From: a virus
Strand: one strand, 5' to 3'
Virus record (IMG/VR): IMGVR_UViG_3300027759_000221
Location: 1-36,370 of that record
DNA: 36,370 bases
The notes under the pieces were generated by a model, which did not search any database, was not told the DNA's origin, and saw only the letters and a list, made by a program, of their open reading frames with translations. Of the stretch, positions 4,295-30,995 are shown one piece after another; the stretch's first letter is position 1, and each line of letters begins with the position of its first letter. The translations under genes were made by a program, and so were the position numbers.

Positions 4295-4903
4295 CTAATT
4301 GTGAACAAACAGAATATGCGGTAGTTTTACCACCAAAATCTCTTGGTCGTCTAGCAAGATATCTTCAAAATAACTCGCATCTCCAGCATAGCCTTTGTCT
4401 CGAAATCCAACCCTTTTAGCTCTGTCTGTCTTCACAATTGCAGCGCTTATATCAATTGAATTGCGCCTATAACTTGTTTCAAAGTAAGAATAAGGCGGCA
4501 AATCTCTACCGCCAGGGCGGTTGTGGGAATGCACCATGTCAAACAAAATGACATCAGGCTGCCCAGTGGCCACGTTCAAAATCTCTACTGCTCTTGGGAT
4601 AAAGTAATTATCTGCATTGGTCAGCAGCAAATAATCGCCCGTGGCCTGCTCAATCCCAATCTGCCTCAAAGAATGCCCGTAGTCGTTAAATCTAGACTCT
4701 GTACAAAAATACTTGATTTTCTTTGGCATCTGCTTGGCCAGTGGCCGCATTGCCTTTTCAAACTCGGTGCTTGGCCCATCGTGAATGACTGTAAGTCGCC
4801 AGTTGTCTGCGCTCTGATTTATCCAAGACTGGACAAACACCCGCATTTCATTGGTGCGCTCATAGGCCACCGCGAATACATCAATCAAACCATGCCTTCG
4901 CAT
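4295..4903 (-). CDS. Glycosyltransferase, GT2-like (GT-A fold)
   Basis: 202 residues from the ATG at 4903. A frame extends to 4960, but that start lies deeper inside the upstream gene and gives an atypical N-terminus. The protein begins with a strand typical of GT-A enzymes (GLIDVFAVAYERTNEM) followed by WRLTVIHDGPSTEF, the usual second strand ending in a nucleotide-contact Asp. The expected DxD region reads TGDYLLLTNADNYFIPRAVE, with NAD in place of a canonical DxD. Family-2 transferases move a sugar from a nucleotide-sugar to an acceptor. The gene overlaps the next transferase (stop at 4881) by 23 bases, so the two are probably translated together. Targets could be a virion protein or host surface glycans. 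Acceptor and donor are unknown. Confidence 0.75.
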   Translation of the reverse strand: MRRHGLIDVFAVAYERTNEMRVFVQSWINQSADNWRLTVIHDGPSTEFEKAMRPLAKQMPKKIKYFCTESRFNDYGHSLRQIGIEQATGDYLLLTNADNYFIPRAVEILNVATGQPDVILFDMVHSHNRPGGRDLPPYSYFETSYRRNSIDISAAIVKTDRAKRVGFRDKGYAGDASYFEDILLDDQEILVVKLPHILFVHN

Positions 4904-5573
4904 ATTCGGGTCGATTCTCTTTGAGCCATGGCATTGCATCCTCATGCAGCTGCTTGGCATTCATGCCAATGGTGTTGCTGCCAATGTGGTGGACATAGCT
5001 TGCGCTGACATAGTGGCCGTAGCCTTTTTGGATTAAGTCCATACAATGCACATCATCGCTGTACCAATTCAGAGGGGGAAACTTTGCCTCTTCAAATGCG
5101 TCACTTGATATCCATGCAAAGATTGGGCTAACCTCTTGGACCAGTTTGATGTGGGCCTCAGACGGGAATTTGTAGAAGCTCAGTCGCTCACCAGGCTGGC
5201 AAATGCGCACATTCTGGCCAGACCTTGCCGCATCACTTCGAGCCGCCACCCACCCAGCTTTGTAGCTGTTCATGGTCCTGACAATGGCCACATCTTCCAT
5301 CAGCACCTTCACGCTGGTGGGTGTCAGCACAATGTCATCATTGGCCACAATGCATGATGACCAGTCCTTGAGCGCTGCCTCAATCACCTCGTTGTAGTCC
5401 TCGCCAAAGTTCCTTGGCTGGCCAAAGAGTTTGTAATCGGCATCAAAACGCTCAATGACAGACTCTGGGCCGCGCAGATAGACCGGACACTCTGGCGCGT
5501 ATTGCTTGATGGATTCCAGCAGCACGGCCAGACCATGGCCCCTCACAGTGGCAATGACAATCGGACAAATCAT
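4881..5573 (-). CDS. Glycosyltransferase-like protein (GT-A fold)
   Basis: 230 residues. The N-terminus (MICPIVIATVRGHGLAVLLE) and a later VANDDIVLTPTSVKVL segment, where NDD stands in the DxD position, look like a GT-A glycosyltransferase. Further on, PPLNWYSDDVHCMDLIQKGY and YVHHIGSNTIG resemble the acceptor-side acidic motif and metal-binding His of the family. It starts with an ATG overlapping the stop of the preceding small basic-protein gene (ATGA at 5570-5573). Together with its downstream neighbour it forms a two-transferase block between the terminase and portal genes. An enzyme that decorates the capsid, tail or host surface is plausible. The specific reaction cannot be read from sequence. 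Confidence 0.72.
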   Translation of the reverse strand: MICPIVIATVRGHGLAVLLESIKQYAPECPVYLRGPESVIERFDADYKLFGQPRNFGEDYNEVIEAALKDWSSCIVANDDIVLTPTSVKVLMEDVAIVRTMNSYKAGWVAARSDAARSGQNVRICQPGERLSFYKFPSEAHIKLVQEVSPIFAWISSDAFEEAKFPPLNWYSDDVHCMDLIQKGYGHYVSASYVHHIGSNTIGMNAKQLHEDAMPWLKENRPEYAKAWFD

Positions 5574-8869: not shown

Positions 8870-9070
8870 GTTGTTACTTTTTTAAAAAATTTTTTTTGTA
8901 GGTGTTTAGTGCCGCCACAGTCGCCCCCGCCAAGCCGGCCACGGGGGGCCACGGCCACCGACCGCCAGCGACCACCGCTGGGTTATCCACGGATTTTGGC
9001 CAACTTTATCCACAGATTCCTGTGCATAAGTAGGTCTGTAATACTTTAATGCACTTAATTCTGTGGATAA
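8870..9070. other. AT-rich tract, GC-rich block and DnaA-box cluster (candidate origin or packaging site)
   Basis: The interval between the small gene starting at 8819 and terS (ending 9131) has no plausible gene. It holds, left to right: a nearly pure A/T tract (8877-8900); an abrupt GC-rich block (about 8910-8980) with the word GGCCACGG repeated about 12 bases apart; and four DnaA-box-like sites. These are TTATCCACG (8983-8991, one mismatch), TTATCCACA (9006-9014), TGTGCATAA (9021-9029, reverse of TTATGCACA) and TGTGGATAA (9062-9070, reverse of TTATCCACA). The consensus TTATNCACA is known for host DnaA. An unwinding element plus DnaA sites is origin-like. Proximity to terS also makes a packaging site possible. 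Confidence 0.5.
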
Positions 9071-9637: not shown

Positions 9638-9998
9638 TCAGATAATCCTCAATTGATTTAATTGCTTCGGCAGCTGATCTGGCGATAACTGCTCGATACC
9701 CTTTTGCATTTAACTGCAAACCTACAGCGCTTTGCTTGGTTGAAACCACACCGGCCTTGGTCTTCATCTCCACAAATAACGCATGAAACCCGTTTTTAGG
9801 CTCCAAGACGCAAAGGTCAGGCATCCCTGCCAATACCCCTTCAGAATGCAATCTGACGCGCTCTGAGGCCGTTCTATCGCCTCCATTCGGTATTGCTGCA
9901 ATGATGATGTCCGGATAGAACGCTCGAAAGTGTTGGACCACCTTGACCTGGTCAATGTGTTCAATGCTTTTGCGCTTGCGCTTTATGTCAACCACCAT
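9624..9998 (-). CDS. VRR-NUC domain nuclease
   Basis: 124 residues from the ATG at 9998, which overlaps the preceding gene by 16 bases. The frame is open to 10121, but the extra N-terminus has no family character. VRR-NUC is a compact PD-(D/E)XK-type nuclease found in phages, often beside DUF2800, DUF2815 and SNF2 helicase genes, all of which occur here. Visible motifs are EHIDQVKVVQHFRAFYPD, then AIPNGGDR, then GVLAGMPDLCVLEP (catalytic Asp) and FHALFVEMKTKAGVVSTKQ (E-x-K). It probably cleaves branched or junction DNA during replication or before packaging; that role is inferred. Confidence 0.85.
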   Translation of the reverse strand: MVVDIKRKRKSIEHIDQVKVVQHFRAFYPDIIIAAIPNGGDRTASERVRLHSEGVLAGMPDLCVLEPKNGFHALFVEMKTKAGVVSTKQSAVGLQLNAKGYRAVIARSAAEAIKSIEDYLNGKS

Positions 9999-10303
9999 GA
10001 CTCGGATTCTACTGCCGAGGCTTTGGTCTGAAACATATGGCATCGGTGTTTGACATCGGTTGGGAATGCAGCCAGTCCAGTTCGGCTGCACTGATGTTCG
10101 GACCATGTGACTGTTGCCCATCCACCTTTAACCTTTGCCTGGTCAAACATCCACTGCAATGGTTTTGCGTTGACCTTTCTGTGTCGTTCCATCTGCTCTG
10201 CTGGCATCGACTGGCGCTGCTCGACCATTTCCGCATTAGCGCATTGATGGCAGAAAACGCGCTCATCTTCGATGAAATCTAAATTTGTGGATAAGCTGTG
10301 CAT
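9983..10303 (-). CDS. Small Cys/His protein next to the iteron region
   Basis: 106 residues. The ATG at 10303 has an AAAGGA Shine-Dalgarno about eight bases upstream. The N-terminal third contains FCHQCANAEMVEQ (CxxC), and later His/Cys residues (SEHQCSRTG, VKHRCHMF) could complete a zinc site. The middle contains MPAEQMERHRKVNAKPLQWM. No family recognised. Its start codon region overlaps two DnaA-box-like sites (10286-10305), so expression and any origin function would be physically linked. It precedes the VRR-NUC gene with a short overlap. Confidence 0.65.
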   Translation of the reverse strand: MHSLSTNLDFIEDERVFCHQCANAEMVEQRQSMPAEQMERHRKVNAKPLQWMFDQAKVKGGWATVTWSEHQCSRTGLAAFPTDVKHRCHMFQTKASAVESESWWLT

Positions 10304-10305
10304 AA
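10286..10305 (-). promoter_or_regulatory. Paired DnaA-box-like sites
   Basis: TGTGGATAA at 10286-10294 and TGTGCATAA at 10297-10305 are both reverse complements of the consensus TTATNCACA, in the same orientation and two bases apart. They cover the start codon of the 106-residue gene and lie about 35 bases from the first iteron-like element. A third copy, TGTGGATAA, is at 10417-10425. Binding by host DnaA is inferred from the match. Confidence 0.55.
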
Positions 10306-10339
10306 CTTTCCTTTGTGTTGGACCATCAAATGCTCGTTT

Positions 10340-10520
10340 CTAATACGGAAAGCCCTTAAGGAATTTTCCGCCTTTCCGCATTAGAAACTGAAGTACCTTC
10401 CAAGCCGAGACTGGTCTGTGGATAAGTGGGTCTAACGACCCCACTTATCCAACAATCCCTGCCATTGTCTAATACGGAATTCCGTATTAGTTCCGCATTA
10501 GTTCCGCCTTTCCGCATTAG
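10340..10520. repeat. Iteron-like array: six CTAATRCGGAA elements (candidate replication origin)
   Basis: Six copies of an 11-base element lie in 181 bases just past the 3' end of the primase-helicase gene. They are CTAATACGGAA at 10340-10350; TTCCGCATTAG (inverse) at 10374-10384; CTAATACGGAA at 10469-10479; TTCCGTATTAG at 10480-10490; TTCCGCATTAG at 10491-10501; and TTCCGCATTAG at 10510-10520. Copies three and four form a perfect 22-base palindrome. Copies one and two lie within a 17-bp near-perfect inverted repeat (10336-10352 with 10372-10388). Repeated protein-binding sites beside a replication gene and DnaA boxes are the usual make-up of an iteron-type origin. No gene is seen in the 10304-10525 gap. 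Confidence 0.7.
10419..10451. other. Perfect 12-bp-stem inverted repeat overlapping a DnaA box
   Basis: TGGATAAGTGGG (10419-10430) is followed nine bases later by its exact reverse complement CCCACTTATCCA (10440-10451). The left arm includes most of the DnaA-box-like TGTGGATAA at 10417-10425. There is no adjacent T-run, so it does not look like an intrinsic terminator. A protein-binding palindrome, or a structured single-strand initiation site for the AEP primase encoded immediately upstream in the operon, are possibilities. Confidence 0.6.
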
Positions 10521-10525
10521 ACTGA

Positions 10526-12655
10526 TCATGCGAGTCTGACCCAGCCTGACAGTGGCTCATTTGATGCGAATCTGGTGAAGATGGCCGTGCCAATGTGCTT
10601 GCGGATATAGCCTGCATCTGAGCCTTTGACAGTTGAAAAGATTTCAGTCCAGTCCAGTTGGTAGGCGTTTTGGAGTTCTTTTGGCACGATTGGCCTACCT
10701 GGTCCTCTTCGCATAATGACGCTGCCTTTGTCATTGATGATGGCTTGAACATGGTTGCAGACCTCATCGCACTTGTCTTGGATGCGCTGCTCTTTGGCGC
10801 TGTCTTGTATTGATTGCTTGGCGGCCATTCGGTCTTGTTCTGACGACATGGCTGGAATTGCCACCCGACAAATAATCTCTTGCACATCGCCAGCTGGGGT
10901 GATAACTAATTCTGGGAATGTGATGGAGTCGAATTTGATCTCTCTAAATTGTGGCTCGTAGCGCGTTTTTGTCAGCTTTAAGTATCTCTGGTTATCCTCA
11001 TCCATGAAAAGCACGCCTGTCAGGGTTGCGTCACCCGTAAAGGCAGAAGCTCCACGGGCCATGGCATCGGAGTCTTGTCTAGAGATTGTTTTGTTTGTAT
11101 GGGTCAGGATGCAGACTGGCGCTTTTTGTTGTATGAAAATGGTCTGCTTGATGGCGGCAATGTAGGCTCCAACTTCAGAGTTGTCATTCTCGTTGTCAAT
11201 ATCCATGGTCGCATTGGCCGTGTCTAAAACTAATAATGGCTTAATGCCATTAACAGTGTGGCGCTCAATATTATGTGCAAGTCTGAGTAAATCCTTGACA
11301 TTAGACCTTCTGGCATCAATAACCACAAACCAGTCATTCAGATTATTTATCTTGTAATGCTTTGAATATGCAAATAGTGTTCGGATTATCTGGTCACTAT
11401 CTTCTGTCACGATAATTGACTTGCGTTTCTTTTTAGCGTGAATCTCGCAGCCATCAACTTTAAACCCTGCCATGACCATGCACATTGACAGCACTGCTGT
11501 GGTCTTACCCACGCCAGGCTGACCGGCCAAGATGAAAAAAGAATGGGCCATGAAACCTTCGATCAAATAATCGATGGGGTTTAGATGGGTCAGGTCTAGC
11601 GTCAGCTCTGGCCATGATGGGTCTGGTGCATCAGTTAAAGCTGGTGCATTGATCACCGCGGCAAAGTCTTCCACCGCGCTTTTGCGCTCGGCCTGTTTGG
11701 TTGGAGCTTCCCACCCACAGTCTTTGGCGTGCTTGAAGAGTGTGCCAATGCCAACACCTTTGCCCTGGTGAAAGCTCTTCCAGTGGGTCTCAATGTCTTT
11801 TGTCCCTGCATACTTGTTGCCGGCCATGGACCAAGTCATCCATGGGCCTAATCCCATCTCGCCAAACTCAGTGTGTAGCGCTTGGCCTAGTTCAATCCAC
11901 TGGTCGTAGTCGCAGTCTGGGGAAATATGGTGCAAAGCCTTGACTGCGCGATCAAGGTCGCTGTCATCCAGTCTTGAGCCTAATTGGGTGAAGTCAAATG
12001 ATTGTGATGGGGCGACTGGCTTTGGCTCTTGGAGCTGGTGCTGCTCAATAATGCCCCAGTCCATTAACAATTCATGCAAATCGACTGCCTCTTGGAATTC
12101 ACCGACCACAGCATTGCCACTGAGTAGGACTGACTTGCCTGCACTGTTTGGGAGGCCAAATACCTCAAGCTCTTGGCCACCGCCTAGTTTGTACTTCGGC
12201 AGCACAAGGTCAGATTCTTTGGGTGGTTGGACCCATAAGAATACATGGCGACCACGGCCTGAGACAGAAACCTCGGTCAGCATATTGTTGGCCTTGACAT
12301 ACTTAGCCATGCGCTGGATGGCCACATTGGTTGGTCCTGATGCGTGCTTCATGTCCACATCAAGGCAAACCAGATAGTTCCCTGATGCACTAATGATGGG
12401 GCGCTGCTGGACTAAACCAAGATATTGGCCATGTGGGGCCTCTTCCATGGTCCAGACGTCTTCAGCGTTGTAGAGATCGCTTGGGTCTGTATCACGGGCC
12501 ACACCTTGGCCAGACCGCTTGTACGGGATTTTTTTGGAGCCTTGCAGGGCAAAAGTGCAGAAGACTGCATCGGGCGCCACAGCGCCTATTTTGCAGGCCA
12601 GTGTTTGGGACTGGCTGAATGTATCTGGCAGGGGTGTTTCAGTTATAGTTGACAC
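10526..12655 (-). CDS. AEP primase/PrimPol fused to RepA-like helicase
   Basis: 709 residues from a GTG at 12655 with AAAGGA six bases upstream; an in-frame ATG at 12682 lacks a Shine-Dalgarno. Domain order: an archaeo-eukaryotic primase domain with LVCLDVDMK (catalytic D-x-D, about 95-103) and SVSGRGRH (about 130-137); a PriCT-type linker with CDYDQWIELGQALH and THWKSFHQGKGVGIGTLF (about 240-310); then a RecA/RepA-type ATPase with Walker A GQPGVGKTT (about 378-386), Walker B KPLLVLDTA (about 472-480) and ILTHTNK. This combination primes and unwinds DNA at the fork. The C-terminal tail is charged and may bind the origin. No family A or B polymerase gene is visible in the window. The iteron array starts just past its stop codon. 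Confidence 0.88.
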   Translation of the reverse strand: MSTITETPLPDTFSQSQTLACKIGAVAPDAVFCTFALQGSKKIPYKRSGQGVARDTDPSDLYNAEDVWTMEEAPHGQYLGLVQQRPIISASGNYLVCLDVDMKHASGPTNVAIQRMAKYVKANNMLTEVSVSGRGRHVFLWVQPPKESDLVLPKYKLGGGQELEVFGLPNSAGKSVLLSGNAVVGEFQEAVDLHELLMDWGIIEQHQLQEPKPVAPSQSFDFTQLGSRLDDSDLDRAVKALHHISPDCDYDQWIELGQALHTEFGEMGLGPWMTWSMAGNKYAGTKDIETHWKSFHQGKGVGIGTLFKHAKDCGWEAPTKQAERKSAVEDFAAVINAPALTDAPDPSWPELTLDLTHLNPIDYLIEGFMAHSFFILAGQPGVGKTTAVLSMCMVMAGFKVDGCEIHAKKKRKSIIVTEDSDQIIRTLFAYSKHYKINNLNDWFVVIDARRSNVKDLLRLAHNIERHTVNGIKPLLVLDTANATMDIDNENDNSEVGAYIAAIKQTIFIQQKAPVCILTHTNKTISRQDSDAMARGASAFTGDATLTGVLFMDEDNQRYLKLTKTRYEPQFREIKFDSITFPELVITPAGDVQEIICRVAIPAMSSEQDRMAAKQSIQDSAKEQRIQDKCDEVCNHVQAIINDKGSVIMRRGPGRPIVPKELQNAYQLDWTEIFSTVKGSDAGYIRKHIGTAIFTRFASNEPLSGWVRLA

Positions 12656-12711
12656 TGAAATTCCTTTAAGTTGGGGTTTCATTTGTAAGTTGCCATGAGA
12701 GATTGACCTTT

Positions 12712-29392: not shown

Positions 29393-30177
29393 CACACACC
29401 CATTTGTTTTCTTATCTTGGTTGCTGAGATAGCGTGTGTTGCGTCATCGAAAGACTCTTGCTCGATTTTGTAGCCAACATCACGCCCATAGGTGATGTTA
29501 ACAATATTTGGGACAAGCTGAATTTCATACTGACCTTGGTACAAAGGGTCTAAATCACGCTTGATAAAGTCTTTGACCTGATTGGCCGCAAACGGGTTTG
29601 AGCCGTTCCAGCCCTGGCAGTCTCTAATCTGGATCACAACTTGACCAGTCTTTGCCAATGCTCTCTCAAACAGTTTTCGATGGCCTTCATGCCAAGGTTG
29701 CCATCTTCCAAGCATCTGAACAGTCTCTTTCTGCCAATCAAAGACAGGGCGTTGGCGGTTGTCTAAGATGTGAGCAGCAATAAACTCACCCCACTTCTCA
29801 GCCTTCTGCTCAGTAATCCTAAAGTCATACTGCTCTGGGGCTACAAACACCTTGTTGGTGTCTTCAAAGCGGCCTTGGTTGATGGTATCAACCCAGACAG
29901 TCCAATCTGCTTTAAAGTTGTTACGCATCTCAACCAGAGGGGCAACAAAGTCGCAGATCACATAATCCACATCGTAACTGTCAGCAAGATCACGCATTCT
30001 CAAACTCTGGCGAATACGGCCTTCATGGGAGAAGTCCCAATCGTTGTATTTCTTGCGCACATCATCAGCATTCAGCCACATGACTGTCTTGCGGTTGCTT
30101 TGCAAGTGGTCAAGAATGTGCTGTGCTAGATAAGTTTTACCAGCACCAGGCAAACCCATGATTAGAATTCTTTTCAT
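29392..30177 (-). CDS. Fusion of APS-kinase-like and nucleotidylyltransferase domains
   Basis: 261 residues from the ATG at 30177 (ATGA overlap with the sulfotransferase stop); the longer frame to 30231 is less likely. Residues 1-120: P-loop kinase with GLPGAGKT (8-15), LNADDVRKKY (36-44), DFSHEGRIRQSLRMRDLADS and ICDFVAPLVEMR, matching the order in adenylylsulfate kinase (N-A-D, FS-x-E-x-R, phosphosulfate-loop region, F-x-P). Residues about 155-261: a nucleotidylyltransferase with GRWQPWHEGH (HxGH, 163-166), NPFAANQVKDFI, YGRDVGYKIEQ and ISATKIR (250-256), like NMN/cytidylyl-type enzymes. APS kinase makes PAPS from APS. Whether the second domain adenylates sulfate or another substrate is unknown. 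Confidence 0.78.
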   Translation of the reverse strand: MKRILIMGLPGAGKTYLAQHILDHLQSNRKTVMWLNADDVRKKYNDWDFSHEGRIRQSLRMRDLADSYDVDYVICDFVAPLVEMRNNFKADWTVWVDTINQGRFEDTNKVFVAPEQYDFRITEQKAEKWGEFIAAHILDNRQRPVFDWQKETVQMLGRWQPWHEGHRKLFERALAKTGQVVIQIRDCQGWNGSNPFAANQVKDFIKRDLDPLYQGQYEIQLVPNIVNITYGRDVGYKIEQESFDDATHAISATKIRKQMGV

Positions 30178-30995
30178 CCCTTGACCTTGTAAAGTTGTTT
30201 GATTGCAAACTCTGGTGCGGGTGTGCGCCAAAACTCTTTATTGCCATATTTATCCCAAACCGATTTTGGCAAGATTGAGGGGCGTTCTTGCCATGTCACT
30301 TCTTTTCTGACTGTATGTAGACTTTTCATGTTCAAGGCTTTGTCGTATACCTCGTTGTCATACTCTACATTCTTGAAGTCATGGTCAAAGTAAGGCTTGC
30401 CAATAAACCCATAAATCTCACGCATCACGCTCTCAGGCTGTTTGCATAAAGATTCATATTCCACCAACATAATCATGTCGGGGTTTAGAAGTAAACCTTC
30501 TTCTAGAAAGTAATAAGGCTTGACCACTTGCCCTTCCTTCTGAACATCCATTAAGGCATCACATCTTGTAGTGACTGTTTGGTTTGCCTCATTATCTGTA
30601 AGGCTTGCACCATACAAAGAATTCTTGGCAGCAATGCGTTCAAAGCTGTCCAGTATCCAAGGCAAATCACGCACACAGCAAATAATCTTGGTCTGTGGGT
30701 ATAGGTCTTTCAGCAAAGATGTTTTGGCAGTCCATCCCCTGCTAGTGTCAAATACTGTGTTTGGCTTAACTGCTTTGTAGTAAGAGTTAAACAAGTCTTT
30801 GAGTATTTGCTTGCGTCTTTCTTCATCAATCAGGTGATTGCTTTCACTTCCAGTAATGACATTGATGGTAGATGACACCAGGTGCTGTACTGGCGAGGAA
30901 ATATCTGCATAGAACTCAGGGTTCTGACGCAAGATAGCTGAGAGCAGGGTTGACCCCGACCTTGGTAAACCAGAGATGAAGAAAAACTCTTTCAT
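30174..30995 (-). CDS. Sulfotransferase (PAPS-dependent)
   Basis: 273 residues. The 5'-phosphosulfate loop is FFFISGLPRSGSTLLSAILR (GLPRSGST at 9-16), and the 3'-phosphate binding strand/helix is KIICCVRDLPWILDS (R109, S117). It is probably of the Sulfotransfer_3 type. The C-terminal part (EVTWQERPSILPKSVWDKYG) resembles the usual substrate-side region. The enzyme transfers sulfate from PAPS to a hydroxyl or amine of a sugar, lipid or protein. It lies between an appendage gene and the APS-kinase-like fusion, coupled by ATGA overlaps at both ends, which strongly suggests the kinase supplies its donor. Confidence 0.82.
   Translation of the reverse strand: MKEFFFISGLPRSGSTLLSAILRQNPEFYADISSPVQHLVSSTINVITGSESNHLIDEERRKQILKDLFNSYYKAVKPNTVFDTSRGWTAKTSLLKDLYPQTKIICCVRDLPWILDSFERIAAKNSLYGASLTDNEANQTVTTRCDALMDVQKEGQVVKPYYFLEEGLLLNPDMIMLVEYESLCKQPESVMREIYGFIGKPYFDHDFKNVEYDNEVYDKALNMKSLHTVRKEVTWQERPSILPKSVWDKYGNKEFWRTPAPEFAIKQLYKVKG

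Follow-up and report, generated by a model that had tools for sequence, protein, structure and literature searches.

Does the cluster of short repeats directly behind the primase-helicase gene of a freshwater phage mark the place at which its genome replication starts? To answer this question, we analyzed a 36,370-bp virus record (the window, meaning the whole stretch of DNA analyzed) and compared it with its relatives. The window encodes SU10-type portal, adaptor and major capsid proteins, together with an Sf6-like TerS, a VRR-NUC protein, the primase-helicase, an exonuclease, an SNF2-type helicase and a gp2.5-like SSB. It also carries a glycosyltransferase-like gene (4295-4960) and a sulfotransferase-like gene (30174-30995), and a scan of the window for RNA families and tRNAs gave none.

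The repeat array and its neighborhood

The 11-bp element CTAATRCGGAA (iteron) is present in seven exact copies within 292 bp (10229-10520) adjoining the primase-helicase gene, and no further site with fewer than two mismatches lies elsewhere in the 36-kb window. The genes and iterons concerned are as follows.

10526..12682, minus strand: primase-helicase of 718 aa with PrimPol, PriCT-2, RepA-like helicase and C-terminal domains (Pfam and fold matches), the putative initiator
9983..10303, minus strand: conserved downstream ORF of 106 aa, with DnaA boxes and iteron 7 in its 5' part
10510..10520, minus strand: iteron 1, CTAATGCGGAA, exact match, closest to the primase-helicase stop codon
10491..10501, minus strand: iteron 2, CTAATGCGGAA, exact match, 11 bp from iteron 3
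10480..10490, minus strand: iteron 3, CTAATACGGAA, exact match, right half of the palindrome
10469..10479, plus strand: iteron 4, CTAATACGGAA, exact match, left half of the palindrome
10374..10384, minus strand: iteron 5, CTAATGCGGAA, exact match
10340..10350, plus strand: iteron 6, CTAATACGGAA, exact match, inverted partner of iteron 5
10229..10239, minus strand: iteron 7, CTAATGCGGAA, exact match, in the downstream ORF, slot kept in most relatives

The original prediction described six copies in both orientations within a gene-free gap. The repeats and their orientations are real and the count is seven: six occupy the 222 bp that separate the primase-helicase stop (10526) from the downstream ORF start (10303), and the seventh lies inside that ORF, whose start is also overlapped by the DnaA boxes at 10286 and 10297. 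The 22-bp palindrome expected from two fused copies is perfect (10469-10490, iterons 4 and 3). The downstream ORF contains a CxxC motif, and a search for a family match to its 106-aa product found none.

Conservation of the array, the DnaA boxes and a hairpin

A search with the primase-helicase returned 80 relatives, and over 100 relatives were compared overall. The repeat array is found at the same place in every relative with enough downstream sequence, and its slots and orientations are conserved. Among the 77 sequences with an aligned near-full-length protein, we distinguished class A (CTAATRCGGAA, 34 sequences including the window), class B (GTAATGCGGTA, 8 sequences) and class C (GTAAASCGGTA, 35 sequences). 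Within one genome nearly all copies share one class, including the copy in coding sequence. Conservation of the 11-mer among relatives had been proposed as a check. The exact 11-mer is missing in over half of them, and another 11-mer occupies the same slots in the same orientations; because this different 11-mer arrives with a different primase C-terminus, the origin reading is strengthened. A second clade (MW202879 and L084-L118; 51% protein identity) has the same layout with GTCGARGATACC-type elements and their derivatives, and a contig binned in a MAG (L152) has a further variant, TAATCCGGTAA. In MW202879, an annotated CDS across the array (L001 3078-3311) is probably spurious, since it overlies the inferred origin. 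The arrays of L034, L043 and L085 are of mixed class, the proximal copies matching the protein C-terminus and the distal copies belonging to another class. As some distal copies keep another class (second clade, L034 and L043), distal iterons may be less critical.

Beyond these contigs, tblastn against named phages and plasmids found one full-length relative only, and a scan of genome contigs yielded a single locus; it belongs to an Acidimicrobium MAG, the host assignment of which is untrustworthy. An alignment-based viral scan returned the same contigs again and added nothing.

The array is accompanied by DnaA boxes, a stem-loop and a second conserved element.

10286..10294, minus strand: perfect DnaA box TTATCCACA, in the 5' end of the downstream ORF
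10297..10305, minus strand: DnaA box variant TTATGCACA with one change, overlapping the downstream ORF start
10417..10425, minus strand: perfect DnaA box TTATCCACA, in the 3' arm of the hairpin
10419..10451, minus strand: stem-loop with 12-bp arms that includes most of the 10417 DnaA box, conserved with compensatory changes
8878..9070, no strand assigned: second conserved element, located between TerS and small ORFs and containing DnaA boxes, a GC stretch rich in GTGG and an A8T6A6 tract

Two of the three predicted DnaA-box matches (10286 and 10417) are perfect and the third (10297) is one change away from TTATCCACA, although this site reads as a perfect box in most B- and C-class relatives. 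Perfect boxes are kept at fixed positions among relatives, and in 11 genomes strict TTATCCACA boxes are confined to the origin region and one second cluster about 1.45-1.53 kb downstream. The second element contains at least one DnaA box in 57 out of 57 sequences with enough flank, and its A/T tract is also found in the two second-clade loci checked; its possible roles are DNA unwinding, promoter activity or packaging (pac).

The hairpin, which adds to the features originally predicted, is recognizable in nearly all of 111 loci. Its pairing is maintained by compensatory changes among relatives, such as G-C to A-T and T-A to C-G pairs, and is retained in L056 despite an altered DnaA box. Because the count of paired positions mis-registers about four C-class rows, we used the compensatory pairs and dropped percentages. 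A terminator scan calls no intrinsic terminator at the hairpin. By analogy, it may present a pair of DnaA sites or act as a priming hairpin as in RSF1010.

Iteron class and the primase-helicase C-terminus

For eleven proteins, we asked at each position whether the residues follow iteron class across the 77 sequences. In the primase-helicase, 32 positions separate class A from classes B and C without overlap, all of them at residues 619-716, and 14 positions separate B from C, all at residues 623-712. No position separates A from B and C in TerL, the four small ORFs, TerS, VRR-NUC, the downstream ORF, the exonuclease or SNF2, and among these ten genes a single position (TerL 392) separates B from C. 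The same picture emerges from the trees. Iteron class changes twice on the C-terminus tree, which is the minimum for three classes, and 8, 19 and 22 times on the trees of the helicase, PriCT and PrimPol parts of the same protein. For the neighboring genes the counts are 7 (downstream ORF, where shuffled class labels give about 30), 13 (TerS), 19 (VRR-NUC), 20 (exonuclease) and 23 (SNF2).

Recombinants show the same association. Three relatives (L028, L030 and L034) combine a window-like backbone with a B tail and B iterons, and L055 combines a divergent N-terminal primase half with an A tail and A iterons. In the second clade, L084 and L085 show 92-100% identity in each 40-aa bin as far as about residue 640 and 67% beyond it, and their proximal iterons differ (GATACC type versus GGGACC type); at the sequence level, this pair is an independent replicate of the joint change of C-terminus and iterons. 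The C-terminal codons adjoin the iterons, so hitch-hiking adds to the association, and the change counts climb with distance on both sides of the array and C-terminus, which indicates that linkage contributes. We rejected plain linkage as the whole explanation: the inferred recombination events fall on both sides, separating helicase from C-terminus and array from downstream ORF. In the interval that joins the C-terminus to the proximal array, where distances are similar, no such event was inferred. Taken as sequence patterns, iteron class and primase-helicase C-terminus change together in a lock-and-key-like manner. The covariation with residues 619-718 suggests, indirectly, that the repeat sequence is specific to its cognate initiator, and the extreme C-terminal ~100 residues of the primase-helicase are the likely iteron binder.

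10529..10840, minus strand: putative iteron-binding C-terminal domain, aa 615-718 (class-separating residues, two tree changes, pLDDT)

In a separate observation, the helicase part (aa 360-600, L002-L081) exists in two sharply different versions, with about 60% versus 95% identity to the window in places, which recombine independently of the PrimPol part.

Pfam recognizes PriCT_2 (248-319) and AAA_25 (365-532) in the primase-helicase. An AF2 model of modest overall confidence matches the NrS-1 PrimPol (6a9w, E 3.6e-7, Foldseek), RecA-fold ATPases and, more weakly, RSF1010 RepA (E 1.9e-3); because confidence in the helicase portion of the full-length model is low, we relied on strong fold matches only. 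Sequence similarity to NrS-1 PrimPol is near background (E ~0.8). In a 32-sequence alignment, LDVDM (D108, D110), SGRGRH (H146) and E171/E173 are invariant or nearly so, and by analogy they correspond to the AEP catalytic motifs DxD, SxxxxH and acidic motif III. The Walker A residues are conserved. The N-terminus is thus predicted to adopt the AEP fold of an NrS-1-like PrimPol. The NrS-1 enzyme is reported to be a replicative polymerase that starts DNA de novo (PMC8718748), and because the phage enzyme resembles it, the earlier statement that this phage has no polymerase of its own is open to doubt.

The C-terminal domain (aa 599-718) is modeled with a mean pLDDT of 87 and has no match in the PDB (fold or sequence), Pfam or PHROGs. 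Its one match in BFVD is a 715-aa phage AAA protein, probably of the same family. An RRGxGRP stretch, which resembles an AT-hook and may act like one, is found in this domain in the classes with TAAT or TAAA iterons, and is replaced by RRGSNAP in the clade whose iterons lack TAAT/TAAA.

The origin reading, its alternatives and known systems

The minimum of detrended cumulative GC skew, which had been suggested as a check, falls 16-223 bp before the primase stop in 11 out of 11 genomes, which are related and hence non-independent. Its amplitude was equaled in 0-16 of 500 block shuffles. Gene orientation is not the explanation, since the genes flanking the minimum on either side run in the same direction; the maximum is not opposite the minimum. 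Together with the conserved architecture of the array, this minimum supports the predicted iteron-type origin beside the primase-helicase gene. The locus also has short repeats clustered by a putative initiator gene, as iteron origins do, and DnaA boxes, which are frequent but not universal at such origins. Based on these sequence features, the repeat stretch behind the primase-helicase gene is very probably the start of genome replication.

The repeats could instead be operators at which the primase-helicase C-terminus or another regulator controls the transcription of its own gene or of the downstream gene, with replication starting elsewhere. Plasmid iterons often double as operators, the array occupies the intergenic space ahead of a conserved ORF with DnaA boxes across its start, and TTGACA motifs lie beside the iterons in D-clade relatives. 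However, the array within the window contains no sigma-70-like match and lies 3' of the gene of its inferred binder, away from the promoter of that gene, and the GC-skew minimum and DnaA boxes suit an origin better. We therefore consider a purely regulatory array unlikely; a dual role as origin and operator is possible.

A packaging (pac/cos) site read by the nearby-encoded TerS would fit the position of TerS, 0.6-1.1 kb from the repeats, and headful phages commonly have their TerS-binding sites close to terS. Iteron class, however, changes 13 times on the TerS tree versus twice on the primase C-terminal tree, which makes this reading very improbable, and as a site read by TerS it was rejected, since zero TerS residues separate the iteron classes. 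Recombination or partition sites (a resolvase res site or parS) are brought to mind by the gamma-delta-type resolvase annotated near TerS in the relative MW202879 and by the resemblance of the palindromic 11-mers to res half-sites. Yet the window has no resolvase-sized ORF between TerL and TerS, the proteins scanned include no ParA/ParB-like match, and iteron class tracks the primase C-terminus, so that we give this explanation hardly any credence.

We have high confidence in the reading of ~10220-10530 as an origin at which the C-terminal ~100 residues of the primase-helicase bind the iterons, DnaA helps to open the DNA and PrimPol primes. For the mechanism, we infer binding, opening, dependence on DnaA, direction and the use of PrimPol as polymerase. 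The primase-helicase would bind the 11-bp iterons through its C-terminal ~100 residues, and host DnaA would bind the conserved boxes and assist in opening the duplex, with the DnaA-box hairpin as a possible site or means of opening. The RepA-like helicase and PrimPol domain would thereby be placed at the open site, where PrimPol would prime and perhaps also polymerize. More tentatively, and with a good deal less confidence, the locus is a candidate one-protein, DnaA-aided phage replicon in which the C-terminal domain is a new DNA-binding fold and specificity and iterons form a cassette that is repeatedly swapped or rewritten. Primase, polymerase, helicase and origin recognition would then reside within a single 718-aa chain, and swaps would occur between co-circulating freshwater phages, perhaps pressed by competitors or origin-targeting nucleases.

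The original prediction regarded such a plasmid-like mode as uncommon, and it is not unique, given the precedents of SaPI, PLE, P4, RSF1010 and pRN1. SaPI Rep uses its C-terminal domain to recognize an iteron origin located immediately behind its own gene (PMC7581432, citing Ubeda et al. 2007). As proposed for our locus, SaPI Rep/ori and SCCmec Cch2 have an initiator helicase, C-terminal recognition and an iteron origin directly downstream of the gene or operon. The iterons here have the SaPI-like position, and C-terminal recognition is suggested by the covariation. Unlike SaPI and Cch2, the protein joins PrimPol and a RepA-like RecA-fold helicase in one chain, and the setting is a phage genome, where DnaA boxes are present and the C-terminal domain is of an undescribed kind. 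RepA_N of PLE, a Vibrio cholerae satellite, covaries with its origin and swaps between lineages, with experimentally proven specificity (PMC8263062). Covariation of the initiator DNA-binding domain with the origin and repeated swapping are likewise seen here, from sequences alone; PLE RepA has an N-terminal RepA_N domain and ~30-bp semi-palindromic iterons, whereas we find C-terminal ~100 residues and 11-bp iterons.

In pRN1, a stem-loop origin lies immediately 3' of the PrimPol gene (ORF904; PMC4234260), so that the layout of a PrimPol-helicase-DNA-binding protein and the position of the origin resemble those proposed for our locus, whose hairpin may correspond to the stem-loop. However, pRN1 has an SF3 helicase, a winged-helix C-terminus and no iterons (PMC4234260), while our locus has a RepA-like helicase, iterons and DnaA boxes, and its conserved hairpin (12-bp arms) is smaller than the ~100-nt pRN1 stem-loop. 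The SF3 helicase and winged helix are absent here: the helicase is RecA/RepA-like and the C-terminus has no PDB fold match. P4 alpha, which is discussed in PMC4234260, also combines primase, helicase and origin recognition in one protein with origin iterons, but its primase is of the Toprim type, in contrast to the AEP-type PrimPol, RepA-like helicase and DnaA boxes found here. Iterons, RepA helicase, AEP primase and origin hairpins are described for RSF1010 RepA/RepB'/RepC (PMC4234260); these are three separate proteins, of which RepC binds the iterons, as opposed to one fused protein here. NrS-1 (PMC8718748) shares the predicted N-terminal PrimPol fold and a fused helicase, likewise in a phage. 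Finally, Kazlauskas et al. suggested origin recognition for the C-terminal winged-helix domains of some PrimPol-helicase fusions (PMC5862659).

Given the SaPI, PLE, pRN1 and PrimPol-helicase precedents, the initiation mode is already known. Novelty seems to lie in combining these functions within a single phage protein, in DnaA boxes that accompany a phage helicase, in the so far undescribed C-terminal domain and in how deep the natural covariation runs; our literature searches gave no account of this phage group, which leaves such absence unproven. The relatives form a natural series in which three close and several more distant iteron classes are each paired with a cognate domain of ~100 residues, and which includes chimeras; this series makes the evolution of initiator-origin specificity directly testable, as well as possible replication incompatibility between co-infecting phages. 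Overall, our findings mark a probable origin in a widespread environmental phage group, and, judging from the predicted fold, PrimPol may serve for replication in a podovirus that has no classical DNA polymerase.
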